DNA of 64,000 nucleotides, from NCBI GenBank assembly GCA_963969345.1, contig OZ017767.1:3562739-3626738 (forward strand). Reading direction: 5' to 3'. The notes under the pieces were generated by a model that made no database searches, was not told where the DNA came from, and saw only the letters and a list, made by a program, of their open reading frames with translations. Made by a program: the position numbers and the translations under genes. Source of the stretch: Turbatrix aceti. Lineage: Eukaryota; Nematoda; Chromadorea; Rhabditida; Panagrolaimidae. This document shows, piece after piece, positions 3,401 to 58,460 of the stretch (position 1 is the first letter of the stretch; each line of letters starts with the position of its first letter).

Positions 3401-4150
3401 CTTTCTGTCTAGCAAATAGACAAAGAACGGCGGTGGATGGGGGGTCAGCCATGGTCGAAAGACCGACCACCGAAGCATACTTTTACCGGCAGCTTCGGTG
3501 GTTCCACCGGGCCCCCATGGAGGGGCCCCAGGCGACTTTTTATGAAAGTTGCCAGCCGTTAGATGATCGCTGTCCCGGGTGACGAAGTCTGTCCCACCCG
3601 GACGACAATGGCGGGCTGCTCGTGGCCCGCTGCCCTCGGTGACGTCCAAGACCAGGGCACCTGCACAGCGACATCCTTTAATGGTGAGTTACCTGGGAAA
3701 CTTTGGAGACGAATAATCAAGATTTTGTATTTTTCAGACATCCGCCTGACCAGCGAAGAGGCTCACAGGCTGCCGGCCTTCATGCCTGCCCGCCGCGGTT
3801 TTAACCGCCCAGGGCCGCCACCACGAGGCATTCGGACCTGAAGAGAATCGGTTCGAATGCGTGGCATGGATTATCATCTATTTTTGAAGGTATGTTTTTT
3901 TGAATTTTTCAAAATCCGAAACAAAGTCTTTTTTTCAGACGCAAGGTCTCTACGTGAAAATCTTTATTCATCTTTATCATGGACTCAATCGTCCACCATC
4001 AACAAGAATCACAGTGACTTTGTCACCGTGATTCGCGGGCCCAGTCATCCCGGACTGTCCTCGCCGATGCGCCAGCGTCTTCATTCCATCAACAGCAAGG
4101 TATAAAACTTGCAGCGCATCTCAAAAATCGAAGCGCCATCCAAAATGGGT
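3401..4150 (+). ncRNA. Left-arm module B: spliced chain of covarying hairpins
   Basis: Hairpins in order: GGTC-GAAA-GACC (3453-3464); an 11-bp stem (3466-3476 / 3492-3502); GGGCCCC/GGGGCCC (3509-3515 / 3522-3528); a 9-bp stem (3531-3539 / 3545-3553); GCGGGC/GCCCGC (3611-3616 / 3625-3630); GCGGTT/AACCGC (3795-3808); a 10-bp stem with loop TGAAGAGAATC (3829-3838 / 3850-3859); a triloop hairpin (4007-4033); GATGCGC/GCGCATC (4066-4072 / 4114-4120) enclosing GCAAG/CTTGC. GT..AG introns lie near 3,684-3,737, 3,891-3,938 and 4,147-4,204. The module at 57,690-58,460 on - has the same hairpins and intron positions, with compensatory changes. Function unknown. Confidence 0.7.
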
Positions 4151-4204
4151 AAGTTAAAACAAAAATGGGTTTCTGGGATTTCTAATCGGAATTTTCGTTT
4201 TCAG

Positions 4205-5000
4205 ATCTAAGCCGCTTCCTCTCCATGTCCATTCCACCCCTGGTTTGCGACCCTTCAAATCTTCCACTATTTTGTTAGCCGTACGCAGAAATTGGTATGT
4301 TTTTTTTCCTCCCAAATGTCTATCAATCAATTTTTTTCCTTTGCAGATGTCCACTAAACTAAACTCAACACAAGCATCAAACGGCCAATTGCACTGCCAA
4401 CGCCGATGAATTCATGGTTAGTTGTCCTCTGAATCCCTGCTCATTCTGACCCCCTATTTTTTCAGATTTGCAATCATGATTGGGGCCGCGTGTCTCACCA
4501 TCCAGAGGCACGCGATCCGGCGTTGACATCGCAGACCATGGAAGTGTCTGCATCCCTTATGTATCCCGTATCAACTCTTTTATCTCTTTTATTCGTCATG
4601 AAACATTCTGCCGTGCCTGCTTCCCGATTTATGCAGGCACGCCCGACGTTGTCTACTTTGCGCGCATACTATCCGGGGCTTGAGTAACAGGATAAGCTAT
4701 TATAGATGTTTGTCCGGGGGTGGAAATATGAAAGTAGTAACATAGCCTGACTTGACCGAATTGGTCTTGTCGCGGCTGCCGGCTTCGGCTGGCCCAGGTG
4801 CCCTTCTTGCGTTGGCCCCTTCGGTTCAGCCGCCAATGATGCCCTGCCGATGACACGGCCTAAGATCTGAGAGCGGCTGCAACTTAATGAAACACTAAAA
4901 CGGCAACAATATCGGGCGCTAATGGATACAACAACCGGCATCAGCATCAGACAGTGAGTAATATTTTTTTGTTTTGTTTAAATTAATTAATTTTCAGAAA
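4205..5000 (+). ncRNA. Left-arm continuation: exon-like blocks with hairpins
   Basis: Short blocks separated by GT..TTTGCAG/TTTTCAG signals (introns near 4,293-4,346, 4,419-4,466 and 4,951-4,997). Hairpins include CAATC/GATTG (about 4,470), CGCGTG/CACGCG (about 4,488-4,515), GCAGAC/GTCTGC (about 4,530), CGTGCCTGC/GCAGGCACG (about 4,612-4,641) and a CCGGC-TTCG-GCTGG tetraloop hairpin near 4,780. I see no conserved reading frame. It is treated as the continuation of the transcript above on the basis of splice signals and hairpin density. Confidence 0.45.
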
Positions 5001-7180
5001 AATGATTATTTTTTCCGTCTTCATCATCCACATCATCTACGATGTTCCAGTTCTACAACTCTGGATTCGCAATCAACTACACCAAATCAACGTTATCGTC
5101 ATCAACATCATCTTCACGCAGTTCTTCAACTACAGCATGGCATCATCGTAATCCCGCTCGTATTACATTTCTCCACAGCAGTTCACAGCTGCCCCTGGTT
5201 GGTTTAATATACGCGTTTTATCTAAAAAATCAATTCAAAAACATTTTCGAGAAATAATTTTTTAAAACCAAGAAAACCAAATTCAAAAATGTTTCTTCAA
5301 ATTTTTATTACCACGAACACAAAATCCGGAACTTTCCCGGTCTGGCACCGCCAGTTTATAGAGGTTCAAGATAGTCGATGGCTCATCTCTCGACTACGAA
5401 CACACCTCTTCAACAGTCCGGCACCACCACCATCCGGCGTGTGGACTGTCATCGAATCCGCGCCATCATTCAACAAATCTTTCAATCAATTCAGAAGAAA
5501 CTGACAATCTTCCAACCCCCACACAGGCTATTCGACAACGACTGCAACGTCAACAACAAAAACTACTATTATTTATCTTCCGAATCGCCCACTTTCTACG
5601 TTTGTACTAATTTTCGGCGACACAATAGGAAATTCAAAAATGGTATTTGTTCGGTGGTCTGTCTGATTCTTCTACCACCGGTAATTTTCCTGACAAGTGA
5701 TATCGTCTGGACTTTCATCGTAATCACTGCTTCAACGCTCCGCACGAAACCCGACAACTAACTAAATTTTTAATGCTGCCGCAAGATATCTATTTTTACT
5801 CTTTCGGTTGGTTTTTAGTGCAAAAAATTTCTTCAAAAAAACAAAAAAACTTTAGCATGCAAACAAGCCATCCACAAATGCCATCCATAGAATATCACGA
5901 CTACGATGGCCCTCACCCAGCCTACCGCGCCTTGCTCAACCAATTCTAAAGTTCACTTCCGCGTGAACCTTTGGTCAGTCCAACCCCGTTAACTTCAAAT
6001 TCAACACTCTCGAATTCGGCACCACCGCTGGCACAAGACCCCGATCGAACTCTTCCTCTGCATAGCAGGTAACATCTGGTTGGTTGCATTTGCGTACGAA
6101 TAATAAGTAAGATTCAAAACATTTTTGGAAAAAATATTTTTTGAAACCAAGGAAAATCAAATTCAATGTCCAAAACTTTTTTATTCAAAAAATTTGTTTC
6201 CACGCAAACACAAAATCCGGGATATCTCCGGTCTGGCACTGCCAGTCTTTTGAGATTAAACACAGACGTCCACTGTTTCAAATAGTGGCCGGAAAACTGA
6301 ATCGTCGACGATGAACGTCTTTTTGCCGTTTTTTACATCTGCGGTTGGTTTTCGTTTTCAAAATTGTTTCAAAAGACAAAATTAAAATTTCAGACAACAA
6401 CAAATATTCGATCTCACTTCCGCGTGTTCCTGAAGCCCGTCCAAAGCCAGCATGGACCTCGAGCTCGTCACCACCGGTTGCACAAGTGACACCCACATCA
6501 ACTTCATCCCCCAACGAAGCCAACATGCATGGTAACCGTGGCTGTCATTGCAATTCTGACACGTGACTGCAGAATCCTAGCCCCCTTTTTCGCAGTGCTC
6601 AGCATCAGAATTCTGATCAAAATATCCAACTTCATCGACCAAGTCTACAACTTCCGATCAACACACGGTTAGTTTGAAGTCTACGTAACAAATTTAATCT
6701 GATAACTAATTCTAAAAAAACAACTATTTTTGTCAATATCCAAATTTATTTGTTGCTTTTTTACTATTTTTTTCAAAGTTTAGTATTTTTTACTTTTTTT
6801 TACAAAATTGCTAAATTTCTGACATCATCCAACTCTGTTTTTCAGAAATGATCACATCAATGATTTTGTCGTCTTGCCGTTCCGCTGCACCTGGCTGATC
6901 GTGACCCTTCTTAACGATCTTCAACGATGGAAGTAACACATTCATCAATGATCGTCGCCATCAGTCAATACAAAAAACGACCCGTGATATCACCTAAAAC
7001 CCCATTCAAATGATTCATCCGACAACACCAACTTCAAATATTCGGTCTAATTTTAAATGTTATTATTTGCATTTTTTAACAACTTGGATGTCGGCGCCCA
7101 GGCCTGCAAAGGCCAGGCTGCCATTTCCCAAAACTTGTTCGAAATAAAATGAAAAAGGGGGGGGGAGGACAAAGAAGCAT
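5001..7180 (+). repeat. Left-arm 3' region with two twin-hairpin units
   Basis: Two copies of a 29-base twin hairpin lie at 5,326-5,354 and 6,217-6,245. Each has a CCGG..CCGG stem followed by a CTGGC-NNN-GCCAG stem. They are reverse complements of the nine copies at 52-54.7 kb and, like those, are preceded by an AT-rich segment containing a GGTTGG motif. The rest is AT-rich, with no supported gene. Several open frames of 60-130 codons are low complexity. Confidence 0.5.
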
Positions 7181-7187
7181 ATTCATG

Positions 7188-8640: not shown

Positions 8641-8983
8641 TCAACGTGGCTTCGTTCACCGCCTACGCAAGCTGGAGGCCCTAGCGATGTTTCCGTTCAG
8701 TTTTTTCAAACAATCCAAAAAAAGTGTGTAAAACACGATTTCCAAATTTAAAAAAATTAAAACTACAAAATACATTCAATGAAAGTGTTTTTTATAATAG
8801 TTTATTTTTCAAAAAGGTCAGCAATAATAGTACAAATCCTAATAAATACACCAATAAAATTTTCTTATTTAGGTCACCAATTTTCTTATTTAGGTCACCA
8901 ATAAAATAAGAAAAATTGTTGTAAAGCTTTCTTTTTAGTCGGCACTGTGGAGAAGTGTATCTATTGCTTCGATGACCGTCAGC
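8641..8983. other. Gene-poor AT-rich spacer
   Basis: No gene is seen. It contains two head-to-tail copies of a 20-base unit (TTTTCTTATTTAGGTCACCA, about 8,860-8,899). It separates the P450 5' end from the M1-like gene 3' end. Confidence 0.5.
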
Positions 8984-11428: not shown

Positions 11429-14400
11429 ATGGACGACATCGAAAAGCTGCAACACCTCGAGCTGGTCTCCAGAGTCTGCACCGAGCTCGACAACCATCTG
11501 GGTATCAGTGACAAGTCAGTGGCGGAGTTCATTATCGATTTAGCCAAGCAGAATTCGACTTTTGGCAAATTCAAGGATGCGCTTGCAGAACGCGGACTTT
11601 CAGACGGCGTATGTTATTTTTGTTTCCATTATTTGCTATTAATAGATGGATTTACAGCTTGAGGATTCGTTGCTGGCGACGCTGCTGCGGATGGTGCACA
11701 ACGCAATGCCGAGGCCCGCAGACAAACCCGTCCACACGATCAGGGAAGACAAGGACGAACTCAAGGCTTTGTTTCCGGGATTGGCACGGGCCAACGAGAA
11801 GAACAGTACCGTCGACGAGCTTGCCAATCTGATGGGCAAATGGGAAGACGAGCAGGTAGCTTTTTTTGGTCCTTATTGAATCTTTTTTTTCAAATGAATT
11901 TTTTTAGAAAACACACGGCAGTAAATCTTCGCAGGATAAACGCCGCAGTCGAAGGTCGAGAAGTTCTTCACCTGATCGTCGACGTGACCGTGACCGAGAC
12001 CGCGATCGTGAACGACGCCGCAGAAGGAGCAGCGACTCTGATGACGACCGCCGGCGGCGACGGGATTCAAGTCGGGATCGAGATCGTCATCGCGACCGGA
12101 GCCGAGATCGTGACAGAAAAAAACGACGACAATCGAGGTCGCCATCTCCTAGAAGAGTGCTTGAGAAGTTACCGGACGCACCTGAGCTCGGAAAAATTTA
12201 CGATGGCGTTGTCCAGTCTTGCACCAAATTTGGCGCTTTTGCAAGGGTGAGTTTTTCTATTATTTTTTGGATCATTCTGACTTTTGTATTTCCAGATCAT
12301 GGGCGTACGCCAGCGATGCGAAGGCCTCATCCACATCTCTCAGCTGGCCAACACGCGTGTCAACGACGTCTCCGAAGTCGTCCAGCGCAACCAAGCGGTC
12401 AAGGTGAAGGTCATCAAGGTCGATGATTCCGGCCCTCAACGCAAGTTCAGCCTGTCGATGAAGGAAGTCGATCAACGGAATGGGGCTGATCTGTGTCCAC
12501 CGGAAGCCCCGCTGGCGGAGGACGCTGTTCTTGGTCTCGACGACCTCCGGCCCCTGCCTGGCACCAGTGGACTTCCCGGCCGATCCGAGGACACGTCAAA
12601 TGGCAAGCGCAAGCGACAGAGACTCTCGACGCCCGAGCGATGGGAGCTCAAGCAGATGATGGGCGCCGGCGCAATCAGCTACACCGAGATGCCTGACTTC
12701 GACGAGGACCTCGGCATCCTCCGCAACCACGAAGACGAATCCGACGGCGAAGACGTCGAGATTGAACTCGTCGAGGATGAGCCTGCCTTTCTCAAGGGCT
12801 ACGGAAAAATTGCCATGGATCTGGAGCCTGTCAAGGTCGTCAAGAATCCGGACGGTTCCCTGGCGCAGGCTGCACTCATGCAATCTGCGCTCGCCAAAGA
12901 ACGCCGCGAGACGAAGATTCAGGCTGCCCGCGAGAAGGACGGCCAGCGTCAGCGAGGCGGGCCCATCGGAAGCCGGATTTATGATCCGATGGCCCAGCAG
13001 AACAATCCTGAGGCTGAGGAAGAAGAAAGTCCAGCGGCGGCCAGGAAAAAGGTGAGTAAATTTAACCTGACCAAATATTTATTTCATCGAACGCAGAGTC
13101 GCTAGCCTGGCTTTTGTGCCTTGCTAGTGCTAAGTGTTGTTCGAAAACCAAAATTTCCCGGATTGTTTGTGAAGTTCAAAAAAGCCCAATCTTTTTTGGA
13201 GTTCATCCGTCGGGAACAAAAAAAAATTCTGACAATAAAATATTTTTACGTGCGCTTGTTTCAGGACGAACCGGAGTGGCGAAGACACCTCTCGTCCATC
13301 TCAACCAGCGGCCGACGAGTCAACCTCTCCATCAAGGAACAACGCGAGTCGCTGCCCATTTTCCAGTTCAAGGAGCCCCTCATCGAAGCCATCCGACAAA
13401 ACCAAGTTCTGGTCGTCATCGGTGAAACAGGATCCGGCAAGACGACCCAGATGACGCAGTACCTCGTCGAAGCCGGACTCGCTAAGAAGGGCAAGGTCGG
13501 ATGCACGCAGCCCCGTCGTGTCGCTGCCACCTCCGTCGCAAAGCGTGTCGCGGAAGAATTTGGCTGCTCTCTGGGCCAGGAAGTCGGGTATACGATTCGT
13601 TTCGAGGACTGCACGGGTCCTGACACGATTATCAAGTACATGACTGACGGCATGATGCTCCGCGAGTCGCTGCTGGATCCCGAACTCAAGGGCTACTCAT
13701 GTATCATGCTCGACGAGGCCCACGAGCGCACCGTCAGCACCGACGTCCTCTTCGGTCTCCTGAAGCAGGCCATTCGCAAGCGACCGGAGCTCAAAGTCGT
13801 CGTGACTTCTGCTACACTCAACGCAGTCCAGTTTTCCGAGTATTGGTTCAACGCTCCGATCTTCAAAATTCCGGGTCGGACTTTTCCAGTCGAAATTTTG
13901 TACACTCGGGAGCCGGAGACGGACTACGTCGACGCCGCGCTAATGACCGTCATGCAGATCCACCTCACCGAGCCCCCAGGTGATATCCTGGTTTTTCTCA
14001 CTGGTCAGGAGGAGATCGACACCGCCTGTGAGGTCCTGCACGAGAGAATGAAGAAGCTGGGCCCCGACGTCCCTGAACTCCAGCCGTGGCCCGTCTACGG
14101 CGCTCTGCCCAGCGAAATGCAGTCTCGCATCTTCGAGCCCGCTCCCCCGGGCACCCGGAAGGTCGTCATCGCCACGAACATTGCGGAGACGTCGCTGACC
14201 ATCGACGGCATCTATTACGTCGTCGACCCTGGCTTTGTCAAACAGAAGATCTACAATCCCAAATCCTGCATGGACAGCCTCGTCGTTACGCCTATCTCGC
14301 AGGCTGCTGCCCAGCAGAGGTCAGGTCGTGCCGGGCGTACCGGGCCTGGCAAATGCTACCGACTCTACACGGAACGCGCTTTTCGCGACGAGATGCTGCC

Positions 14401-15563
14401 GACGCCGATTCCGGAAATTCAGCGGACGAACCTCGCCAGCACGCTGCTCCAACTCAAGGCGATGGGCATCAACAACCTCCTAGACTTTGATTTCATGGAT
14501 GCACCCCCGCTGGAGGCGATGATCACGGCCCTCAACCAGCTGCATCAGCTTTCCGCACTCGATGACGATGGTCTGCTGACCCGTCTGGGCAGGAGGATGG
14601 CTGAATTCCCACTGGAGCCTGCTCTCGCGAAGTTCCTGATCATGTCCGTCGATCTGGGCTGCGCAGAAGAGGTTCTCACGATTGTGGCCATGATTTCGGT
14701 CCAGAACGTTTTCTACCGACCCAAGGACAAGCAGGAGCTAGCAGATGAACGCAAATCCAAGTTCCACCAACCCGAAGGCGACCCGCTGACGCTGCTAGCT
14801 GTCTACAATTCGTGGAAGCAGAATAACTACTCTCCGACGTGGTGCTTTTCAAACTTTGTCCAGTTTCGGCAGCTGAAGAGGGCCCAGGACGTGCGCAAGC
14901 AGCTGCTCAGCATCATGGACCGACACAAGCTGCAGGTGAGGTCGTGTGGAAGGGATGTCCAGCGCGTGCAGAAGGCGCTCTGCTCTGGCTACTTCCGCAA
15001 CGCCGCCAAACGCGACCCGCAGGAGGGATACCGGACCCTCGTCGACGGCCAGAACGTCTACATCCATCCGACGAGCTCGCTCTTCCAGCAGCAGCCGGAG
15101 TGGGTCGTCTACTACGAGCTCGTCATGACCACCAAGGAATACATGCGAGAAGTAAGTTTTGACGGCTTCGGGGGGATTTCGAACGCAGAGTCGCTAGCCT
15201 GGCTTTCGTGCCTTGCTAGTGCTAAGTGTTGTTCGGAAAGAAAAATTTCCCGGATAGTTTGTGATGTTCGAAAATGGTTTTATCTTTTTTGGAGTTCATC
15301 CGTCGGGAACAAAAAAATTTTGTGGATGTATACTGCGGTGAAAATTTTGGAAACCAACTAAAAATTCCTATTTTCAGGTAACAGCAGTCGATCCAAAGTG
15401 GCTCATCGAATACGCACCGTCTTTTTTCAAGCTCGGCGACAACACGAAACTCTCCGCGGTCAAACGCAACCAGAAGATCGACCCGCTCTTCAACAAGTAC
15501 GAAGATGCAAATGCGTGGCGTATCTCGCGTGTCAAGAAGAAGATTTACAACCCGAATCGCTAA
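11429..15563 (+). CDS. DHX8: Pre-mRNA splicing DEAH helicase DHX8/PRP22 (nematode mog-5)
   Basis: ATP-dependent RNA helicase that releases spliced mRNA from the spliceosome. Exons: 11429-11608, 11646 (or 11658)-11855, 11908-12246, 12296-13051, 13265-15151 and 15378-15563, about 1,185 residues (human DHX8 about 1,220). In order: a conserved N-terminal segment ([14 protein letters not shown]), an RS/RD-rich stretch, an S1 RNA-binding domain (GKIYDGVV .. FSLSMKEV), an acidic linker, then the DEAH core with [25 protein letters not shown] and [12 protein letters not shown], followed by HA2 and OB-fold regions. The S1 domain distinguishes it from PRP2, PRP16 and PRP43. Two introns (13052-13264 and 15152-15377) share a repeat described separately. 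In nematodes the orthologue mog-5 is needed for the germline sperm/oocyte switch. Confidence 0.95.
13085..13235 (+). repeat. Intronic repeat, copy 1
   Basis: A segment of about 150 bases inside the DHX8 intron 13052-13264, running from TCGAACGCAGAGTCGCTAGC to GTTCATCCGTCGGGAACAAA. It matches a segment in the later intron of the same gene in the same orientation. It lies wholly between splice sites. Confidence 0.85.
15178..15325 (+). repeat. Intronic repeat, copy 2
   Basis: Second copy of the DHX8 intronic repeat, in the intron 15152-15377. Similarity to copy 1 is high across the element but absent in the flanking intron ends and exons, as expected for an element placed in two introns and not for exon duplication. 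Confidence 0.85.
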
Positions 15564-41328: not shown

Positions 41329-42071
41329 TCTGACATAAACATATTGTACATGTTTATAGAACACCGTAGCTCAATTTTGAAAATGTCATACAAAAAATGC
41401 GCTTGATCATTGTGACATAAGTTTTTAAAAAAGTTTTGATCAATTTTTAAAAAAGTTTTGAATATTGCTACAATCTAAATCGGGTAAAAATAATTTTGAG
41501 CATTTTTGCAGTCTTCCAAAGTCGAGTTTTTGAAAAATGTAAAACAGCAAAACTTTTGGAATGATTTAAAAAAATACCGTAAAAAGTTCTGCCATACGAG
41601 CCGGCTCGGGGACTGGGCGGCTGTTAGGCCATCCATACAACAGTTCCAAGAATTGGCACGATTTCAAGAAGTTATTATTCTAATTAATTGCCGATCAATT
41701 GGTCATTAGTTAGTAGCGGGGACGGGGGTGGGCTCAATGCACTACTGAAAAGGATCGAAATATTATACGAAGCTAAAGAAGATCAACGTTCAACACTTTT
41801 CCGCCCCTACAGAAAATTCATTGTAATGAATTTAGAGCGTTTTACAAAAAAATTGAAAAAAAAGCAAAAGCTAGATAATGTGTATGGCAAAATGTTCAAA
41901 AACAGTAGCTGCATGCAGACATCGAAAAGATAAAAAAACGTGCATATGAAAAAAAAGTATAAGAATATGATATTTTAGTGCCTTTATTTTGCATTGTTAA
42001 CAAAAATTTGCATAATAAAGTAACTCGCAAGGCGAGTAAGACGGTCACTATTGTTCACTGATTTGCTGACA
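41329..42071. other. Spacer between surface-protein genes 1 and 2
   Basis: Contains the dispersed short repeat at about 41,360-41,421 and AT-rich DNA. Two small open frames near 41,506-41,933 have no supporting features. Confidence 0.4.
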
Positions 42072-44774: not shown

Positions 44775-46073
44775 TCTGACATAAACATATTGTACATGTT
44801 TATAGAACACCGTAGCTCAATTTTGAAAATGTCATACAAAAAATGAGCTTGATCATTGTGACATCAGTTTTTTCAGATATATCAATTAAGTTTTGAATAT
44901 TGCTACAATCTAAATCTGGTAAAATATTAATTTTGAGCATTACTGTTGTGACCGCCACTCGTCTTTACGATTTACTCCCGGTGATAAAAACACCTGTAAC
45001 AAACAATACATAATTACAATACATCAATGAGGGAAATCCTTACCTTCCGACCGTACAAGGTAACGCGTCGGAGGTGTAGCTACAGGAAGGGTTGACAACA
45101 CAATCGATACAACAACAATGAGTAAGGAGAATACAATGGCAAAGGAAAGTAACTATGCTAATCATTAGTACTGCACGCAAGGTGCAGGTACAACAATTAC
45201 TAAACCCAAAAGAGCGCCCCTTCGGGGCGCCAGAGTAAATGGTTTCTGAATTGCCACATAAAAAAACCTAAAAAAAATGTGCCTCAACAAAATACCTGCT
45301 CTGACTATGTTTTATAAACTGTTCTGCATCTGGAAAATTGCAAGCAAATGTTTTGTCAAGTCGCCTAACTTTGCGTGTCCTGTTCCCAAACTTCCTCAAA
45401 GTCACCCTATTGCCACTTTATAATTGTTAAATTGAATTCAATTTTTAAAAATTTAGTCAAATGGATCCAACCTTCTTCTCAAACACAATTCCGATACTTG
45501 ATTTTTGTCTTGAACCATCTCATTCAACCTTCTGGTTCAAACAAAATACTGATTGCTTGATTTTCCTCTATAAAAGAAACAGCTCGCCGAAAAAAGTTTT
45601 GCAGAATGAATCGGCAGAAAAGAAATGATCATTACCCTGTTCCTGATCATTGCTCGAATTAATTTTTTTTGAAAATTTGCTCAAATTAATCCAACCTTCT
45701 AAAACACAATACCGCTATCCCCGCTTGATTTTTGTTCTAAACCTTCTCGTTCAAGTACAATATCGCTATTCCCAACATTCTGGTTCAACCAAAATACGGA
45801 TATTCTTGTTTGATTTTTTAATAGCAATTTGAACAGAATATAATAGTCAAGAAAACGTTTTTCTGTCGATAAAAAAAGCTTTTATCAGCTGCCGAAAAAT
45901 AATGCTTTGCAGAATCAATGGGCAGAATACTGCTTATTGCTTGCTTTTGCTTGTTTATTTTCCTTTGCCATTGAAATTAGCGTTGCTCTGATTGCTTACT
46001 TAGAGGAAAATTTGCATAATGACGTGACTCGTAAAGCGAGTAAGACAATCATTAGTTCACTGATTTGCTGACA
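44775..46073. other. Spacer with tandem duplication and a strong hairpin
   Basis: Contains the dispersed short repeat (44,811-44,867) and a perfect 7-bp hairpin GCGCCCC-TTC-GGGGCGC (45,214-45,230) in a 300-base segment less AT-rich than its surroundings. There is also an imperfect duplication of about 45,430-45,610 at 45,650-45,930 (phrases ATCCAACCTTCT, TTGATTTTTGT and TTTTGCAGAAT). No gene was recognised. Confidence 0.5.
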
Positions 46074-48385
46074 ATGGGCTCCTATTTGCCGGCGATTGTA
46101 CTCTTTTTAATCGGAGCGCCGTCCGTCCATCCGTTATTCATGGACATGTACGGGAGTGAGTTTCTGATTTGTTCTTTTCCAAGCCTTTTTCAAACATATG
46201 TTTCTTTCAGAGATTTTTCAAGCTGAGGTTCTGTACGACTGCAGTATTTACTTCTACGATCGAGTCGTGGATATTCACGCTCCACCACGTTGGTGTAAAC
46301 ACTTCAAGTCTCACATAAGGGCTTGTTATGATGGTAATCCGTGCATATATGCTTTTTACATTGATGATGACAACGTACTGAATCTGTTTACATACAGTTC
46401 CGATGGAACTTATAATAATCGTGAGTTTTATTTTGTATTTATCGGCGATCACGAAAAACATTTTTCAGAAAAATTGATTTCTCAGGATTACTTTGAGACA
46501 GTCCCAGGATACTACAAAAATGTGAACACAACGTTACGTGTTAGTCACATATACTCCGTCATCGGTGTGTATAAAGTCCTAGGCGGCGACTTACAAGATA
46601 CGTTTAAAATTTCTTATGAAGTATGCAAAGATGTGAAATCACCGAAAATGATTAACTACGTTTTTTACAACCGTACAAGTAACACCGCCAATGTGACTAC
46701 AGTAAGTGTTATACATTTTTCTATTATCATTCAACATAAATTGTAGCATTTTTCTTCCTGCAATCCACTTCTATACCAAAATTCAATCAATAGTATAAAA
46801 ACCACAATCCTTCTCGATGAAAAAAATTGGTCTATTAAAAACTGCACTGTTGGAAATTTGGATTTTTTCATGATTTCTGTTCCGCAGTCTGTTCAGACAG
46901 TGGTATATGGATACGACATGTTACGACAAAATCTTTCTGAATCGTGTAAGTAATATTTACGAGAAACGGACGGTTACCTAAAAGTGATTTCAGTTCCAGA
47001 GTTGTACGCTACTGAAATACCACCTGCCAACGTTTCATTCTATGGTATTATCAAAATGCATGGACAACTGTTTGTTCCCGGGTTTGAATTATTGGAACCA
47101 CTGCCAATAGAAATCAACTGTAAGATCTTGATTTGAAATGTTTAATCAAAAACGCTGATTCCGTTTCAGACACTGAGGTGCCATTCTTCTTTTTGAAGAA
47201 CGCGACATCAGCGGACGACCCCCTTATGTACTCTGCGTTTTTTCTCTACTACAAATACGTCGGTCATGAACTAGACTTGGCCATTCGCATTTTACACAAT
47301 AGGAATCTGATGTACCAAACCAATGGTCTTCATGACTACTCAAAGATATGTAGTTTTGACGACGACAATGTCCCAGTGGTGGCGGCCCCCAGATTTGTTG
47401 CTCAAGATGAATTCAGCCTTGAAATCGAAGGTACGTTGCCACCTGAACTTTAAATTTCACTTGCTTTAATTTAGTGCGTTTCTACCAGAACAAACTATGC
47501 GTCGTAAGCGTTCGCTACAGCTTTTTTTCACAGCTGTATTCAGTTTTTGTAGTTCGCTTAAATGGAAATTATATTAACAATTTCACCGCATACGTTCACG
47601 TTGAAACCCGTACGATAACTGCAGTGAATTGTTGGTTCAAAAATCGCACGGTTAACTGGTTGCTGGCTTACACAGAAAAGAAAGAGGCCGAACTCATCAG
47701 TCTCGACGACGATGTGTCTACTCCTATCTTCCCTTGCCCTCTCTGTGGTCCTAATACCACAATGCATTGTGACTGGAGCCCCGAAACTGAAAAGAAGTAT
47801 GACTCAGCTGTACTCCTCATCACCGGTTTTGAAGTCCGTTTCATCGGCGTCAAGAACGAGGACTTTTTGAGGCGGCGTATTGAATACTACGTCATAAATA
47901 CCCCAAACCAATTATATTTTGGACAGACAATGCAACCTGGTAGGTCGCTTGTTTTTTCATAATTGATTTCAATTACTAGTTTAGCCTTGTCTCTGGATAC
48001 CTTCTACTTTACAATTTGTAATTGGACTACGTTAGCACCCCCGAAATTTTGGACTAGGAAAAAACCCACGGAACTTCCGACTACGGAATCACCCACGGAA
48101 CTTCCGACTACGGAATCACCAACGGAACTTCCGACTACGGAATCACCAACGGAACTTCCGACTACGGAATCACCAACGGAACTTTCGACTACGAAATCGT
48201 CACCGGAACTTTGGACTACGGAATCACCCTCGGAACTTTGGACTACGGAATCACCGGGTGGGATGGATCCAGTTGCAGGAACCCCAGATACAGGCAGCAA
48301 CGGTGCGAGGTGTTTACGCGACTTGTGGATCCATTTGCTTCGTTTTGTCATTTTGACCTGTGTATTTCTGATAGAACTAGCGTAA
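46074..48385 (+). CDS. Surface protein C with Thr/Glu/Pro stalk, tandem copy 3
   Basis: The most diverged of the triplet. It starts MGSYLPAIVLFLIGAPS; blocks FYDRVVDI, PGYYKNVN, YKYVGHELDLAIRI, AYVHVETRT, VNWLLAYTE and PCPLCGPNTTMHC are kept. Its third intron is only about 45 bases (46,702-46,746) against about 360-395 in copies 1 and 2. The stalk is preceded by a changed segment (APPKFWTRKKP) and the tail is CLRDLWIHLLRFVILTCVFLIELA, still ending without a cytoplasmic domain. Exons appear intact, although junctions were checked less fully than for copy 1. Confidence 0.8.
48055..48265 (+). repeat. 27-base coding minisatellite, copy 3
   Basis: Stalk-coding repeats as in the two upstream genes; about five regular units and three degenerate ones. 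Confidence 0.88.
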
Positions 48386-48569: not shown

Positions 48570-49830
48570 GACCACTCGCGTTGAGTTCTCTCGTCAATTG
48601 TTCTTCGATTCTGCATGAAGACAACGCACTGCTCAGTCGCACTACCGTATTTCACCAAACTGGACAATCGAAGAAGCAAGCACGTGCGACATGTTCATGT
48701 TCAGCCCGGGTAGCATTCACGAGCAAAAAGCACTGCATGCGCCTTCCCCTTATTTTTTATCAATAGAGCGCGCGCGTGCATTTTCAGAAAGAGTCATGTT
48801 CAAAAAAACGCCCTGAAGCCCGTAATAGAGTTTTTAGCTTACGGTCACTTCGGTAGGCATGGGCATGTCCCAAAGATTGTTTTAAGCCACTCGCGGCTTC
48901 TGTAGGATTTTTTTGGGCAGTGCTGGAGGCATTGAAAGATCATGAAACTTCGAAGTGCCGTAACTCACCAACACCCTTGGCGATTTTGAAAAACTCTCTA
49001 TCACGCTTTTCATTATGCCGAAAAGAATCAGTATGCAAAACAGATGGCACCAAAATATGCGCGTATTCGATTTACATCAAAAATTAGATTACCAGCTTAG
49101 AAATGCGCACGCGGTGAAACATTAGTGAAAAAAAGTTTATTATGATCATCGTAATTAATAAAAACTAAAAAAAGTCAAATAAAAACAAAGAAATCAGAAG
49201 GCGAAAAAGTGGTGCCCCTCCAGATTTGGACTGATCGCCGAGTTTATTCGTTGGCGGAACCCCAAGAGAGTCCGCTATTGCAAAGCGCGTGCGCATTTCT
49301 AAGCTGGTAAACCAGTGGTAATCTAATTTTTGATGTAAATCGAATACGCGCATATTTTGGTGCCACCTGTTTTGCATACTGATTCTTTTCGGCATAATGA
49401 AAAGCGTGATAGAGAGTTTTTCAAAATCGGCAAGGGTTTTGGTGAGTTACGGCACTTCGAAGTTTCATGATCTTTCAATGCCTCCAGCACTGCCCAAAAA
49501 AATCCTACAGAAGCTGCAAGTGGCTTAAAACAATCTTTGGGACATGCCTAAGCTTACCCAAGTGACCGCAGGCAAAAAAATTCAAAAACAGCTTCATGAT
49601 CTTTTTTTGAACATAACTCCCTTCACGCTCGCGCGCGCTTCTTTTTCTCTTGTTTGATAGAAAGGCGCATGCAGTGAAAAAGGTGGTCATAGCAGTGATT
49701 TCGCTGGATTTACGAACCCATGTCTGGACAGCTTTGGTATTCGAAGCCGCAACTGTGGCCTTGGTGCTTTCTCCATCATCTGAACCACTTTTTCTGTCCT
49801 TCTGTAGCGTTTTGAAGACATTGGTCTCGC
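48570..49830. mobile_element. Long imperfect inverted repeat (fold-back element)
   Basis: 48,640-49,115 is complementary to about 49,285-49,760 over most of its length. Landmarks are ATGCGCGTATTCGATTTACA against TGTAAATCGAATACGCGCAT, GTATGCAAAACAG against CTGTTTTGCATAC, and GGCAGTGCTGGAGGCATTGA against its complement. The central loop is about 170 bases. The arms contain small indels. This is typical of a fold-back or MITE-like transposon. No transposase was seen; a 129-codon frame on - at 49,505-49,894 lies in one arm and has no recognised domain. Confidence 0.75.
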
Positions 49831-50990: not shown

Positions 50991-51328
50991 CAGCAGAACG
51001 ACAGTAAATGTGAGTATTTTTATTAAAAAAAGTGGGAAGTCAAAAAACTACAATTTTCGAGGGACAGTTAAAATTGACAAATAATTACTAAAGTTGTTCC
51101 GGTTTTTTGTTAACAATCAAATCAAGGGCATAATCGGGAAATATTCTGACAACTGCATAAAATCAAGAATTTCGTTCGAGTTATCGATGGAGTAGGCCAA
51201 AAACTTGCGGGAGTGTTTGTGCGGACACTTATTAAAAGAACAATAAATTTACCAAATAATAACAATCAAAGCATCAAAATTCGGGAGAAAAACTGAAAAA
51301 GATAAGTTCGTAGTTGAAAAAAAAGGTT

Positions 51329-51399
51329 GGCTGGACGGGGAATTGAACCGCAGCCTAAAGTTGGGGAAAAAGAAAACGCAACCACTCCGCTATTGGAAC
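51329..51399 (-). tRNA. tRNA-like sequence with A and B boxes, probably tRNA-derived
   Basis: On the - strand an A box TAGCGGAGTGG (51,392-51,382) is followed at the normal spacing by a B box GGTTCAATTCC (51,349-51,339). The T stem pairs in four of five positions. The acceptor arms do not pair (GTTCCAA against TCCAGCC), so this is a tRNA pseudogene or the head of a SINE and not a working tRNA. Confidence 0.4.
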
Positions 51400-51479
51400 A
51401 CAGTTGTTGGGCATCATTTCTGACTTATAACCCAACGAGTGTTTAAAAAAAATCGGCGCGCCTAGTTTTCCTCCTCGTT

Positions 51480-52030
51480 TTTTCAACATAAAAAAACGGA
51501 GCAGGGGGGCTTTTCAGGGCTCCCCTGCTCCTTTGCGCACCCCACCCGACATCTGGAGCACGTGGGGCACCCCAGATGCCAGGTTGCGCCGCTTTTCTCT
51601 CTCGCCCGCGCCCCCAGCCCTACTCGCACCCGTACCCGCGCACCCAACCCTACCCCGCGCACCCAACCCCACCCGCACCCCCCTCCCCCGTACCCGCCCC
51701 CGTCCCCTCTCCCCACCTCCCCCAAAAAATCCCTGTCCCCATCACCGGGAACAGGGAGAGGTTCTCCATCACCGGAGAACCCCTGTTGGGCCCTCCTTCG
51801 GCGGAGGGCCCCCCACACCCCTTCCCCTTGCCCACCCAATCAACCCCGCCGGATGCCACACGTGCAGATGCTTTTTATTTTTCAGCACGTGTGGCAGAGC
51901 CGGATCTTTTTTTATTTTTAAAAAATCATTTTTTTGATGAACGTCGGCTTTGTAGTCGACTCTGCCAATCCCGGGGTGACAAAAATTCGTCAGCTGGGCA
52001 TCTGTTGGTGCCCAGCCAACGCGTTGATAG
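51480..52030. ncRNA. GC-rich chain of perfect hairpins at the inner end of the right arm
   Basis: Stems: GGAGCAGGGG/CCCCTGCTCC (51,498-51,507 / 51,522-51,531), CATCTGG/CCAGATG (about 51,549-51,579), GGTTCTCC/GGAGAACC (about 51,761-51,782), GGGCCCTCC/GGAGGGCCC around TTCGGC (51,788-51,811), GCCACACGTGC/GCACGTGTGGC (51,855-51,865 / 51,885-51,895) and GCTGGGC/GCCCAGC (about 51,992-52,015). Between them lies a C-rich tract whose long open frames on both strands are compositional. It is placed with the structured-RNA arm by resemblance only. Confidence 0.5.
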
Positions 52031-52129
52031 GCAGATTGCTCCTGTAGAGTTGTTGTGAGCCGGGAAGATGATTCTGGAGTGTAGATGTTGTTGGAGATTC
52101 GTAGCGTGACTTGTCAATGACAGTGAGCC

Positions 52130-54760
52130 AAAAAATCTCAAATTACTGGGCGTGCCAGACCGGACAATTCCGGATTTTGCGATTACGTGAAAAATAATTT
52201 TAGTCAAATTTGGAAAGAAATATTTTCGAAAAAAAATGTGTGTTGGTCTTAATTAAAAAAAGTTGTAAATACTTTGAAAAAAAATCTTTTGTAAGTTTGC
52301 CAACCATCAGTAAGTTGCAGTAGGCTGCTAGGAAGAGCAGATGTAGGACGTAGACCATCGGGAACATGCCGGCATCGTGAGCCGTTTTCTGACTGCTGGC
52401 TAGTTGTCGTGCAGGTCACGGTCGATTGGGATGGCACAGTTGCAACTGCAGTTATCGCACCTCAAAAGACTGGCTACGCCAGACCGGGCATTTTCCGGAT
52501 TTTTTTGTTACGTGAAAAATTATTTTAATTCAGGATTAGAAAAACTGTTTCAAAAAAGTTATTGTTTTTGTTTGTCTCAATTAAAAAATAAAATGAAAAA
52601 ACTAGTTTTAAGAAAAAATCTTTTGTAAATTTGCCAACCAGCACGTCCTGAGTTGCAGTAGGCTGCTAGGAAGAGCAGATGTAGGACGTAGACCATCGGG
52701 ACATGCCGGTAGTGTGAGCCTGTATTTGATCTGCCGTTGCTGCTGTTGTTTCGTGCAGGTCACGGTCGTAGCTGAGGATGTCACAGGTGCAGCTGCAGTT
52801 ATCGTATCTCAAAAGACTGGTCATGCCAGACCGGACAATTCCGGATTTTGCGATTACGTGAAAAATAATTTTAATCAAATGTGAGAAAGAAATCATTTCG
52901 AAAAAAATGTGTGTTAGTCTTAATTTAAAAAAAATTGAAATATTTGAAAAAACTAGTTTTGTAAAAAAATGTTTTGTATGCCAACCAGCAGTAAGTTGCA
53001 GTAGGCGGCTAAGAGGAGTAGATGTAGGAAGTAGACCATCGGGAACATGCCGGCAACGTCATCGAGCTGGGTGTTGTCGTGAGGTCGTCACGGTGGATAG
53101 GGATGGCACAGTTATCGTACCTCAAAAGACTGGCTACGCCAGACCGGGATGTTCCGGATTTTGTGATTACGTGAAAAACATTTTTAATAAAATATATAGA
53201 TGATCAAAAGTAGGCCAGCTTGTAGTTGTAATTGTAGATCAGGCAATTGTCCTACCTCAAAAGACTGGCAGTGCCAGACCGGATATTTTCCGGATTTTTG
53301 TAATATGCGAAAAAAAAATACGAAAACACTTGTTTAAAAAAATTTCAATCATAAAAACGAAAAATAAAAATTCAACGAAAAATAATTGTTTTTAAAGTTG
53401 CAATAAAAAGTGGGGAAAAAAAAGTTGTTTTTTTGCTCTGTGGTAAACCAACCAGTAATTAATTGCAGTGAATGATAAGTGGAAGCTTTCCGGGATGAGA
53501 ATGAATAAGGAAGAGTCTGTGGCACCAGGGTCGTCGAACTATTATAAATACAAACAAGCTGGAGTTGCAGGTAATTGTCAGGTTCCGAGTAGTGTCGTAA
53601 GGTATCTAAAAAGACTGGCTACGCCAGACCGGGCATTTTCCGGATTTTTTGGTTACGTGAAAAATTATTTTAATTCAGGATTAGAAAAACTGTTTCAAAA
53701 AAATTATTGTTTTTGTTTGTCGCAATTAAAAAATAAAATGAAAAAAGTAGTTTTAATAAAAAATCTTTTATAATTATGTGTACCAACCAACACGCCTCCT
53801 GAATTGCAGTGGCAGAGGAAGTAGTGGCCGTGAGTGAGTAGTGAAAATAATGCCAACGGCATCCGTAGTCGCAGCAGCCTGATCTGATCGGCTCGTGGCG
53901 CCGGTGTGTGTCAAATGTCATGTTTGGATTCAGGAAAATAAGACAATGAGTTAAAAGTGCCTAAAAAGACTGGCCATGCCAGACCGGGCATTTTCCGGAT
54001 TTTTTGTTACATAAAAAATATAAAAAGTGCTTTCAAAATTCTAATAAAAAAATTTTCGTACACACGTGTTTTCTGTGTGCCGAGGTGAGTGAATACAAAA
54101 AAAGTAAAAAACGAAGTGAGTAGGGAAAATAAATAAAAACCATCCTGATAGCAGCCTGAGGCATAAGGGTCGTCGCCGTGATTAGGATACGTCCTATTTA
54201 ACGGACATTGTAGACGTTTGATGGTTGTACCCGTTTCGGTAGGCTCGCAGTGGTTTCGCATAGATACCTCAAAAGACTGGTCATCCCAGACCGGACAATT
54301 CCGGATTTGGTGATTACGTGAAACATAATTTTCTTCCAGAATTTAGAAAAACATTTTGAAAAAAAGTATTGTTTTTGGTAGTCGCACTTAAAATTGTTTG
54401 AAAATCGTAATAAAAAAATTTCGTACACACGTGTTTTATGTGTGCCGAGGTGAGTAAATACAAAAAGAAGTAAAAACTGATGTGAGTGAAAAAAATATAA
54501 AAACCATCCTGAGAGCGGTGAGTCGTCGCCGAGGACTGGGATGAGTACGTCCTATTCAACGGATAGCGCGGACGTGTTTTGTTGTAGTCGGTTTGGTTGA
54601 GGACCAGGAATAGGTAGCCGCCGTGGTAGTCTCGCAGCGGTGTCGCACAGGTATCTTCAAAAAACTGGCCGCGCCAGACCGGGTATTTTTCCGGATTTTT
54701 CGTTATTTTATAAAATAATTTTAAAAAATAGTTTTTGACGCTGGCAGGCAGCTTTGATAA
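52130..54760 (-). repeat. Nine-copy twin-hairpin array, about 310-390 bp period
   Basis: Units each carry, read on +, AAAGACTGGC-NNN-GCCAGACCGG....CCGGATTTT. Cores: 52,145-52,173, 52,470-52,498, 52,817-52,844, 53,130-53,157, 53,265-53,293, 53,615-53,643, 53,970-53,998, 54,277-54,304 and 54,665-54,694. The unit also has an AT-rich segment and a CCAACC motif. In the cores the loops vary while the CTGG/CCAG and CCGG/CCGG arms are kept. Spacing is 307-388 apart from one gap of 135. Two inverted copies are in the left arm. It does not look like CRISPR: the spacers are themselves repeated. Confidence 0.8.
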
Positions 54761-55490
54761 AAAGTTTTGGTTTTTTAAGTTTTTAAAACTTTCTTAAACA
54801 CAAAATGTAAAGTTGAAACCAACTATCCGGGAACTGCAGCGTGCCAGAGAGCGAGAGATGTCGGTTGAGCGGTACAAGTGCCGTACCGTGCGGTGCTGTT
54901 CGGCGTGAGGTGCAGGAGCGAGTACAGGTGTCGCTGAGGTAGATGGATGGTATGGGATGCGAGCAATGTTACAATTTGCTTTTCGGTGATACGCTGGATA
55001 AACTTGTTGCCAATGTAGAGAAAAGTTGAAGGAAGCGAGTTGATGAAGATCTTCATTGGATACGGGTGTGTTCAGTTTTTCGGGAATTTGGAAGAAAGAA
55101 GTCGGATTTTCAGACCTGCAAAATTTAAAATTGAAAAAGGTGAAAATTTTTGGTGGTTTTGTTTTGTGAACAAAAAACGAACGGACCATGTAGGCATAGT
55201 AAAAAAAGCACTTGAAAAAGATTTTGTTTTTCAGTTTTATTTTTTTTTTCAAAAGAAAGATAAATTTTTTTATACAAAAACCAACCTTCAAGTTTGGAAA
55301 AAAGGCAGTCGCATGAAGAGGAACTGCATCTGCGGATGATGCAGATCGAGTCCATGGAAAGTAGTGCTTGAGTGAATGGGAGTCCAGTCCAGTATTGTTC
55401 GGAAGGACTGGACTGGAAGCACTTGACGATGATAATAGTGTAGTCGTCTGGGTTTCAAAAAAACCGTGATGTGGACGCCGTGTTGTAGCT
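54761..55490. other. AT-rich stretch next to the twin-hairpin array
   Basis: No supported gene. Open frames near 54,800-55,340 are rich in Phe/Lys and follow A/T runs. A local inverted pair, AGTCCAGTCC / GGACTGGACT, lies at about 55,382-55,414. Confidence 0.35.
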
Positions 55491-55527
55491 GTAGTAAAGT
55501 GCGGTGTCGAAGAAGGGGTGGCCTGTA

Positions 55528-55686
55528 TGGCTCTTTTTTTTTACTTTTTTTTTTTTTTTATCTTTTAAATTTTTTTATCTTTTTTTTTTTTTTTAGGCAT
55601 TTTTTTTTTAGGTTTTTTATTTTTTTTTTTTGTTTTGGTTTTCTTTTTTTTTTTGGGTTTTTTTTTTTTGGTTTTTTTTTTGGTTT

Positions 55687-55734
<48 letters not shown>

Positions 55735-55750
55735 CGGTTTTTTTTTTTTG
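55528..55750. repeat. Poly-T tract of about 220 bases
   Basis: Almost pure T on + (A on -), interrupted by GG, C and AGG. A second tract lies at 58,560-58,650. On the inferred transcript strand both are poly-A. Length may be an assembly estimate. Confidence 0.85.
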
Positions 55751-55959
55751 AAGTTGAAGTTGACCGCTGCAGTGAGGTACGTTCGTTTCCTGAAAAAATG
55801 GCAGTGATTAGTTTGCGGTCAGAATGATAAATGCAACCGAAATTGGAACAGATAAATTTGTAGATCTTTTTTGAAAATAAGTAAAGAAATCCACGAACTA
55901 ATTAAACTCGATTTTTGCTCAAAACTCACTAAACTGATAAAAAAAATTACCTCAGTGCA

Positions 55960-57240
55960 TTTACAGGTCATCCTGAGTTCGTTTGTAGTCGATTGGGCTG
56001 GCGAGGCCCATAAATGGTTTCTTGGTGGCAAAGTTGAAGCCACCAAGACGCCGTTGCTGCCCCGGCATAGGAGGCCATCGTTCGAGCGGCAGCATAGCGT
56101 TCTGCACTTTAATTCCGCTCGAAGCTGATGGCCGCCGGGGTCTTTTCATCGGTCGGCGCTTGAACAGGGACGTTGCGTAGCCTACAAAAAATAAGAGGGG
56201 TCAGTTTGTGTGGAAATAAAAAAATTGACCAACCTGTTATCCTTCTAAGGTGTTATGGGCGAGTTGAGAGCAATTGATGGCAAAAGTGCCTGCTCGTCGC
56301 CTAGAAGGGGCCGCCGGAATCGTCGCCTACGGGGGCGTTGGATGACTTGGTCATCAGGCACCTACAAAAAATTACAAAAGTCAGAATTTTTTTTAGTAAG
56401 ATTTTTTTAGGATTTGAGAAATACATAAGAAAATCAAAATAATATTTTTAAATTAAAAATAGGAAAACTTTTTATTAGAAAAATATAGTTTTTGTAAAAA
56501 CTCGATTTTGGCACCGATAAAAAAATAAAAAAAATTACCTTAGTGCGCTTTACTGGTCACCGCGTGTTCTACATGAGGCGATGGACTTATTCAGATGATT
56601 GTGCCATCGCCTCGTTTGTAGTTTCTCGGGCTGGCGAGGCCCATGGATTCTTGGTGGCTGAGCAGTGTTGAAGCCACCAAGACGCCGTTGCTGCCCCGGC
56701 GGTGTGCCATTTGAGCGGCAGCATGGATTGCCGCCGGGGTCTTTTCATCGGTCGGCACGGGGTGCAGGTATGTTTCGTTTCCTGGAAAAGAATGGCAACG
56801 ATTAGTTTGTGGACGGAATGAAACATTTGAATAAAAATTTATTAAAAAATTGATTTTCGTAGATAAAAATGTTTTCAACAAAATTAGTAGAAAAATGGAT
56901 TTTTTACCGAAAAATGAAATGTCAATTTTTTACTTTGTATTTGAAATAAAAAATATTTTACCTACCTGTAAGCCTTCTACGGTGCAGCTGGCGACTTTGG
57001 AGCGATTGACGGCAAAAAGTGCCTGCTCGTCGCCTAGAAGGTGCCGACCGGAATCGTCTACGTGAGGTGATGGACTTATTTCTGGAGTTGGTGCCATCAC
57101 CTCGTTCGTAGTTGGTTGGGCTGGCGAGGCCCATAGATTGCTCGGTGGCTGCAGAGAAGGTTGCAACCACCGAGACGCCACTACTGCTGCTCCGGAGGCA
57201 GGATTGCCAATGGTCGACGGAGGCGTAGATCGGCGCATAT
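55960..57240 (-). ncRNA. Right-arm module A, three copies of covarying hairpins
   Basis: Stem II: TCTTGGTGGC / GCCACCAAGA (56,020-56,029 / 56,039-56,048); TCTTGGTGGCT / AGCCACCAAGA (56,649-56,659 / 56,672-56,682); CTCGGTGG / CCACCGAG plus TGCA/TGCA (57,141-57,148 / 57,167-57,174). The left-arm copy has GGCGG/CCGCC in the same place, so pairs change together. Stem I: CCCCGGC/GCCGGGG with a nested 9-bp TTCGAGCGG stem (56,060-56,140), and CCCCGGCGG/CCGCCGGGG (56,694-56,702 / 56,731-56,739); it is eroded in the third copy. Blocks alternate with AT-rich introns on the - strand. Confidence 0.65.
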
Positions 57241-57680
57241 CGCTGATATCAATCTAATTAGTGTTTCCACATTTTTCCTCTCCTCTCATAATTTTGGGGA
57301 CTCAGCTCGTATCGGGTGTGTTTGGGTCATGCTCAGGAGGGAGGTAATGCTAGGTGCTCTAAGTGGTGCCCAGGAAAGCGCGCGACGCCGGGAGTGCCTG
57401 ATTGTTAGCAGACACAAAAGGGTAATAATATACAGATAGGGGGAAACAAAGGGAAATTGCCACCATAGACGGACAGCCAGCGCCGGCCGACGTGCCATTT
57501 GTGGGACACTCGGTGGCCCCTGTATGATCCGAAGATCATCGGCGCTGGCTGCGGTGGGTTTTGCGACGATGTTGAGTTGAAGAAAGTTGAAGGATCCCAA
57601 ACCAGACGTGGAAGGGAGAAGCGACTTACATCTGAAAGTACAATTTCTGATTAGAAGCTCTGGACACCGACCCCAATTTT
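57241..57680 (-). other. Right-arm segment without a clear left-arm partner
   Basis: It lies between modules A and B, with no conserved hairpin or gene recognised. A - strand splice pair ending at about 57,630-57,690 (GTAAGTAAAAAATTGGGG..TTTCAG) joins it to module B. Confidence 0.35.
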
Positions 57681-57689
57681 TTACTTACC

Positions 57690-58460
57690 CATTTTGGATG
57701 GCACTTCGTTTCCGAGATGCGCTGCAAGTTTGGATTCTTGCTGTTTTGAAGTGAAGACGCTGGCGCATCGGCGGGGGCAGTCTGGGATGACTGGGCCCGC
57801 TAATTGGAGCGACTATGTCGCTCCGATGATGATGATGGATGATTGAGGGTTTATTGTTGAAGATTATGATGGTTAAGTGAAGAATGATCAAGCGGATGCT
57901 GATCTAGTGACCTTGCGTCTGAAAAAAAACAACTTTTATTTTCTGATTTTGAAAAATTCAAAGAAACATACCTTCAAAAAAGATAGAAAAATACTACCAC
58001 GCATTGGACCGATTCTCTTCAGGTCCAATGCCTCGTGTGGTGGCGGCCCTGTGCGGCAGTTGAAACCGCGTCGGGCAGGCAGGAAGGCTGACTAGCAGCC
58101 TAAGCCTCTTCGCTGGTCAGGCGGTTGTCTGCAAAAGACAAAATGCGGATTAGTCGTTCCAAAATGTTCCCAGATAACTTACCATTAGTCGATGTCGCTG
58201 CACGGTTTGCCCTCGGAGGCGGCCAAAATTATTGGACGTCTCCGAGAGCAGCGGGCCACGAGGCAGCCCGCTAGTCGACCGGGCGGGAATGGCGACGCCG
58301 CCCGGGAAGGACAGCGATCATCTAACGGCTGGCAACTTCCGAAGAAATTGCCTGGGCCCCCGTCATCCATGGGGGCCCGGTGGAACCACCGGAGCGTCCG
58401 TTAACAATGCACGGCTAATATGCTCCGATGGTCGGTCTTTCGACCATGGCTGACTACCAT
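57690..58460 (-). ncRNA. Right-arm module B: spliced chain of covarying hairpins
   Basis: Counterpart of 3,401-4,150. Same elements on the - strand: GGTC-GAAA-GACC (58,434-58,445); an 11-bp stem (58,422-58,432 / 58,385-58,395); GGGCCCCC/GGGGGCCC (58,354-58,361 / 58,371-58,378); a 9-bp stem closed by a TTCG loop (58,331-58,352); GCGGGC/GCCCGC (58,251-58,256 / 58,266-58,271); GCGGTT/AACTGC (58,056-58,069); CATTGGACC/GGTCCAATG with loop TGAAGAGAATC (58,002-58,030); a triloop hairpin (57,803-57,827); GATGCGC/GCGCATC (57,716-57,722 / 57,763-57,769). Introns near 58,131-58,185 and 57,917-57,972 match those of the left copy. Reading frames are not kept. Confidence 0.7.

Follow-up and report, generated by a model that had tools for sequence, protein, structure and literature searches.

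Setting and copies of module B

The window, i.e. the whole stretch of DNA analysed, spans 64 kb within the 12.3-Mb contig C2 of a genome of 59.9 Mb in 28 contigs. Two inverted copies of a conserved module, termed module B, lie at 3404-4204 on the plus strand and at 57632-58493 on the minus strand, where a first inspection of the letters alone (the sequence-only reading) had placed them. The genome holds at least 15 copies, 14 on C2 (2.15-5.08 Mb) and one on contig C5, and a search with the 35-nt module start, which allowed up to 3 mismatches, returned the same 15 places with 0 mismatches at each. The copies form two subfamilies, type I (n = 6, including the plus-strand copy of the window) and type II (n = 9, including the minus-strand copy). 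Between the types ~ 1 kb aligns by BLAST at 75-79%, together with short pieces; within one type, similarity between close copies spans 15-18 kb at 97-99% and more diverged copies are similar in patches. L001/L002 and L007/L008 are near-identical pairs, a P450 gene has been duplicated along with the unit in L002 and L003, and L014 and the type I copy L006 share 92% identity in their 5' regions, parts having been exchanged between types. Given this duplication of whole units, the 15 copies do not represent independent events.

The sequence-only reading named no RNA family with such a layout, and the window and seven loci gave 0 matches at the gathering cut-off of Rfam 15, while permissive Rfam searches of two stretches returned only matches far below the family cut-offs. 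A description of the family is likewise absent from the literature matches listed, as far as the openings of their abstracts tell, and viral contigs contained 0 exact matches to a 26-nt core.

Several other features surround the units. A piece of a cytochrome P450 gene (7188-8210, minus strand) adjoins the type I unit, and a 1-kb block on the other side of that unit is 65% similar to the P450 region of a sister copy. The window also carries a DHX8/Prp22-type splicing helicase (12284-15361, plus strand), just before which a separate frame holds an S1 domain; mog-5, the C. elegans homologue of DHX8, is autosomal. Two tandem-repeat arrays with 1.3-4 kb spacing occupy 19594-29618 and 38603-48376, the second with 27-nt inner repeats, and a fold-back repeat at 48791-49619 has 304-nt arms that are 92% complementary and 221 nt apart. 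Elsewhere in the genome, a satellite array whose period appears from BLAST offsets to be ~ 328 nt (L033 7433-10000, L030 1-2570) adjoins the inverted type II pair L007/L008, and SL1-like RNAs scoring below the family cut-off lie on contig C6 (3376694-3418638), mostly at 1644-nt spacing.

Layout of the type I and type II units

The type I unit is read on the plus strand. Its upstream hairpin exons (2626-3075), with motifs such as GGGCCTCGCCAGCCC, gave folding z < -2.5 in four folding windows starting at 2626, 2701, 2851 and 2926; short pieces related to them are found downstream of the module in type II. They are followed by a GCCCCTGCGACGTCGGGC hairpin recognised by eye (3254-3271), which type II shares with its last two bases differing in some type II rows, and by the A-rich leader of module B (3317-3403), largely invariant in 15/15 copies. 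The conserved part of exon 1 (3404-3683) has a hairpin at its 5' side and, at 3426-3560 and 3562-3675, two multihelix domains. After a putative intron of 54 nt (3684-3737), exon 2 (3738-3889) carries the hairpin GCATTCGGACC-TGAAGAGAATC-GGTTCGAATGC, which in type II is one pair shorter, the base being absent on both sides of the stem as judged by eye from the alignment. The sequence-only reading had called this loop identical: TGAAGAGAATC is indeed the same in 14 of the 15 copies, but L013 has one change. A second putative intron (3890-3938, 49 nt), exon 3 (3939-4148) with a covarying triloop stem at 4007-4033, and a third putative intron (4149-4204, 56 nt) complete the module.

On the minus strand, the type II unit has an exon upstream of module B (58700-58992) in which a ATCGGCTG..CAGCCGAT closing stem is followed by a long A tract; this exon is highly conserved in the 6 aligned copies and preceded by TTTTTTTCAG in 6/6. 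Exons 1 (conserved part), 2 and 3 lie at 58183-58493, 57972-58128 and 57689-57918, and the putative introns at 58129-58182, 57919-57971 and 57632-57688. Farther downstream, hairpin exons of the CCCCGGCGG / GGCCTCGCCAGCCC class (55300-57250) gave z < -2.5 in 10 folding windows with starts from 55300 to 57100, and a 56600-57300 block was found at 9/9 type II units. Upstream of the module both types have, by eye, a closing stem with an inner hairpin as well as a GCCCCTGCGACGTCGG hairpin, so that the fold architecture seems to continue there despite the divergence in sequence between the types.

Folding windows with z < -2.5 numbered 28/182 in the type II unit and 10/94 in the type I unit, compared to 4/80 in one control stretch. 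In type II most of them fall within 59.4-55.3 kb and 52.1-51.4 kb of the minus strand, and two further ones, at 50.7-50.95 kb, cover a simple repeat. A tracts encoded in the genome were seen on the RNA strand at 55534-55749 and 58565-58652, the second in 6/6 aligned type II copies. The downstream region of type II also contains a stop-to-stop frame of 248 residues (54794-55540, minus strand), and L014 has no such frame at the matching place. Finally, a repeated double hairpin, CCGG..CCGG-TCTGG..CCAG-TCTTTTGAG, is found at 52125-54340 on the minus strand and at 6189-6256 on the plus strand; the 7 minus-strand copies, spaced by 135-705 nt, each stand apparently just before an exon start, with a recurrent GGTTGGTTTTT nearby.

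Splice signals and reading frames

Conserved intron positions had been proposed for the two copies of the window, and the signals are in place throughout the family: GT..AG is intact in 45/45 putative introns (15 copies x 3), which are ~ 50 nt long and have TTTTCAG ends. Introns of this style, along with the weak SL1-like matches, suggest a nematode genome. One of the two introns originally delimited, 3,684-3,737, was borne out exactly, but the other, given as 58,131-58,185, was off by 2-3 bases and is 58129-58182. These signals suggest that the transcript is spliced.

Reading frames, in agreement with the sequence-only reading, are not conserved. Differences in exon length between copies are not multiples of 3 (exon 1, counted from its first hairpin, 274-311; exon 2, 152, 157 or 158; exon 3, 183-230), and in the 6 copies checked every frame of spliced exons 1-3 contains 3-13 stops. 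Stop-to-stop frames are at most 248 aa long within 49-64 kb and 160 aa within 1-7.1 kb. Identity between the types, over three comparisons, was 64-83% in introns and 77-86% in exons. Introns almost as conserved as exons would mean that the introns are constrained as well or that the module has been partly homogenised, which calls for caution and adds no support.

The 3' domain of the type II units

A further structured domain (51415-51904, minus strand) was found at 15 places: 9/9 type II units, two additional copies that are close and four that have diverged (71-76%). It lies downstream of 9/9 type II modules and of 0/6 type I modules, and 6 of its places are without module B. Its core (51441-51500) comprises a near-invariant CGTTTTTTTATGTTGAAAAAACG hairpin (U7/A6), AGGAGG, GGCGCGCC and a U run, the latter present in 8 aligned rows. 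A 29-nt core pattern with 3 free positions matched 14 places, 13 of them perfectly and one with a change in the A tract, compared to 1 match for the reversed control pattern; in the C1 copy the closing bases of the U7/A6 stem are altered.

About 50 nt beyond the core lies an element that we call tRNA-like (51317-51392, minus strand). It contains two motifs which we take to be A-box-like (TAGCGGAGTGG, 51382-51392) and B-box-like (GGTTCAATTCC, 51339-51349), the latter identical in 9/9 aligned rows, and a conserved T run (51317-51324); by our own count the spacing between the two boxes is that of a tRNA. No tRNA and no Rfam gene was recognised at the type II 3' side, and no acceptor stem could be paired by eye.

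Conservation of base pairing

The pairing of exon 1 was examined over 83 consensus pairs in 12 helices, 2 of the 85 consensus pairs being left out. Of 1162 pair cells 1161 are formed, compared to 30-46% in slid controls, while 18 pairs vary and 3 of these show double changes. When the 3' letters were shuffled, the observed pairing, the number of double-changed cells and the covariation score were never reached (0/500). The number of double-changed pairs, however, is not distinctive (3 vs 2.3 in shuffles, with 198/500 shuffles reaching 3), and there are fewer pair types than in shuffles, all 500 of which reach the observed number. With shuffles giving as many double-changed pairs, a test that accounts for phylogeny may be of little power here.

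For the 3' domain, 85 pairs were tested in 7 rows, with 99.5% of 567 cells paired and slid controls at 39-53%; this left out 29 of 114 pairs (long-range or G-rich) as well as the second hairpin, whose loop length differs, and the consensus fold was made without L043, which is a partial copy, and without L007, which nearly duplicates L008. Here 6 pairs are double-changed vs 3.4 in shuffles, and 9/500 shuffles reach 6. When substitutions were redrawn from unpaired columns, 251/252 cells were kept in exon 1 vs 216 +/- 8 and 147/150 in the 3' domain vs 120 +/- 5, with 0/2000 redraws reaching the observed value in either case.

The exon 1 structure had been fitted to the same alignment on which it was tested, and the redraw test, for exon 1 and the 3' domain alike, still uses a structure so fitted; for this reason, tests free of such fitting were added. 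Pairs with a probability > 0.7 (or 0.9) were taken from one sequence and checked elsewhere, for the module in the opposite type and for the 3' domain in the diverged copies. At 0.7, the changed pairs that still paired were 21/40, 13/23, 21/33 and 16/23 for the module and 18/27, 14/24, 24/38 and 11/17 for the 3' domain, i.e. 52-70%, with P from < 0.001 to 0.018 in the eight tests; at 0.9, P was <= 0.030. Where both sides of a pair had changed, pairing was retained in 22/24 cases for the module and 16/20 for the 3' domain, each summed over four overlapping tests, compared to 8/16 and 18/42 in two ORF controls. The ORF A control showed no excess in this test (P = 0.44 at 0.7 and 0.50 at 0.9), but the ORF B control exceeded the null (P = 0.024 and 0.009), as did the antisense of the module (P = 0.043 and 0.019, with double changes kept in 12/15). 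Hence, the null is somewhat lenient. With plain MFE structures, 23/49 changed pairs were kept from L001 to L012 vs 15.8 expected; for single exons P ranged from 0.019 to 0.72, the excess being smaller than with confident pairs, and exon 2 was not significant in any of six directions. Exon 2 also gave 0 double-changed pairs in the automatic alignment, which is partly misaligned there.

In terms of stability, the consensus fold of spliced exons 1-3 reaches -210.8 kcal/mol vs -129.0 +/- 10.0 for 20 column shuffles (lowest -150.3), thus 8 s.d. below, and 152 of its 160 pairs lie within single exons. The antisense of the same exons, at -195.2 kcal/mol, is only 7% less stable. Nevertheless, 14 of the 18 varying exon 1 pairs include a G-U state, which favours an RNA on the strand of the splice signals because G-U states pair only on that strand; the GAAA and TTCG loops are both on this strand too, as the sequence-only reading had it.

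The triloop stem in exon 3 (AATCAC-A-GTGAC-TTT-GTCAC-C-GTGATT, 4007-4033) had been singled out as a stem kept through nearly complete sequence change. Over 7 distinct rows, 72/84 cells of its 12 pairs form (85.7%; slid controls 23-46%), and 4 pairs have double-sided changes vs 2.7 in shuffles, 115/500 of which reach that number. The description is accurate for the inner 8 pairs, where 2/56 cells are broken, but not for the outer 4, where 10/28 are. In the same way the strong covariation announced for the family holds in kind, but it rests mostly on one deep split, between types I and II, plus shallow branches. This evidence comes from one genome with a small number of independent lineages; taken by itself, the number of double-changed pairs beats shuffles only in the 3' domain. 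Together, the pairing tests, the fold energy, the exon lengths and the stops support a family of structured RNAs in which no frame is conserved: the base pairs of module B have been kept through sequence change, as they would be in a structured RNA.

ORFs upstream of module B

The nearest ORF upstream on the same strand is ORF A at 6/6 type I modules and ORF B at 9/9 type II modules. The sequence-only reading had noted neither this conserved ORF nor the 3' domain of type II. The matched part of ORF A ends 5.2-7.0 kb upstream of type I modules and that of ORF B 5.6-7.3 kb upstream of type II modules; because the search used just the first 189 residues of A, ORF A itself reaches closer to the module. 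At least 5 type II units have an ORF A as well, at a greater distance upstream. An additional ORF B locus (C2:4192023) lacks a module B on its strand, and in L013 ORF B is broken into frames of 191 and 438 aa.

The tested ORFs are under purifying selection, with dN/dS of 0.42-0.51 for ORF B (3 copies) and 0.05-0.49 for exon 1 of ORF A (5 copies, two of them identical). Their proteins are of low complexity and partly arginine-rich. No Pfam domain was detected at E <= 1 in four ORF pieces, no relatives of ORF A or B were detected in the protein database at E <= 0.001, and the fold model of ORF A exon 1 is poor (pLDDT 64). A paralogous relationship between ORFs A and B was considered and rejected, the best BLASTP match having an E of 2.3 (one A piece vs B). 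By eye, a similar-looking R-Y-x-L-R-x-R is seen at the C-terminus of both.

Discussion

Fixed helices, splice signals, the lack of a frame and a constant protein neighbour together point to a family of structured RNAs that act as RNP scaffolds. Module B would belong to a transcript of several kilobases, read from the strand of the conserved upstream ORF and folded into hairpin domains in a fixed order; splicing would join exons that each hold a folded domain of their own, and the mature RNA may then be the scaffold of an RNP for which the proteins encoded upstream are the obvious candidate partners. We regard this reading, a structured RNA within a spliced multi-kilobase transcript on the strand of the ORF that serves as RNP scaffold, as probable. 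The RNA could be either a separate lncRNA or the 3' part, giant and structured, of the transcript that also carries the ORF, and we lean slightly towards one transcription unit with the ORF.

A neighbouring possibility, which we consider a serious one even though the balance is against it, is that there is no independent RNA gene and that the hairpins belong to a long structured 3' UTR of the ORF A and B mRNAs, acting in cis on stability, localisation or translation. Indeed, ORF A or B stands upstream on the same strand in 15/15 units, its matched part ending 5.2-7.3 kb away, and the tested ORFs are under purifying selection. Against this, several kilobases with many introns past the stop codon are unusual, such an intron-containing stretch being normally a target of NMD, and the 3' domain occurs at 6 places without module B, where upstream ORFs were considered only through the ORF A/B match lists. 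Compared to structured 3' UTRs in general, module B is alike in lying downstream of a same-strand ORF and differs in the size of its region, many kilobases, and in having several putative introns as well as folded domains that are separate from one another.

Incidental hairpins in a decayed multi-copy sequence homogenised by gene conversion would account for introns nearly as conserved as exons, for the near-identical copies L001/L002 and L007/L008 and for exon 1 double-changed pairs that do not exceed shuffles. However, conversion spreads paired changes and does not create them, whereas changed pairs stay paired above the null; moreover, folding is far below that of column shuffles and structured folding windows are enriched compared to the control stretch. 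We therefore hold this to be very unlikely. There is a somewhat better, still small, chance that ORF A/B and the structured RNA are parts of a large mobile or selfish repeat whose hairpins serve its own RNA: close copies are similar over 15-18 kb (97-99%) and diverged ones in patches, the proteins are of low complexity without recognised relatives, and parts have been swapped between types, as with the 5' region of L014 and type I L006. On the other hand, 14/15 copies sit on one contig within 3 Mb, some as inverted pairs, no Pfam domain was found in the four ORF pieces tested and no sharp shared ends were seen among the copies compared. Segmental duplication is in keeping with the clustering, the inverted orientation of some pairs and the P450 copies that accompany L002 and L003.

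Among known systems, lncRNAs of the roX / Xist type are long RNAs with repeated hairpins thought to bind proteins. The putative long RNA of module B likewise has repeated hairpins, and differs in being multi-copy and beside coding ORFs. In MALAT1 and NEAT1 (MEN beta), a U-rich/A-rich/U-rich element near the 3' side is followed by a tRNA-like element; in this class the tRNA-like 3' element is cut by RNase P, the U-rich and A-rich parts form a bipartite triple helix and the RNA is retained in the nucleus. The putative long RNA of type II similarly has a conserved U/A-rich element near its 3' side and then a tRNA-like element. It departs from the MALAT1/NEAT1 arrangement in its order (U7 hairpin A6, then the U run), in a tRNA-like element with A- and B-box-like motifs and no acceptor stem by eye that lies ~ 50 nt further on, and in that the RNA would be multi-exon, multi-copy and linked to an ORF. 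This likeness, drawn from sequence motifs, is to be taken as a lead only. In a bolder form of the scaffold reading, to which we give only an outside chance, each gene would encode a nuclear-type protein and also give rise, within one unit, to a spliced RNA of several kilobases whose domains are fixed; the type II RNA would end in a U/A/U element and a tRNA-like element as a separately arisen equivalent of the 3' end of MALAT1/NEAT1, and the protein would pair with the RNA in an RNP whose two parts diverge together, the nearest ORF being A with type I RNA and B with type II.

Conserved secondary structure in lncRNAs is disputed, in large part because few homologues exist and these have diverged. 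With 15 paralogues in two subfamilies, a single genome here offers paired changes together with a constant protein neighbour, which opens structure, splicing and the pairing of protein with RNA to direct tests in an animal whose genome is small.
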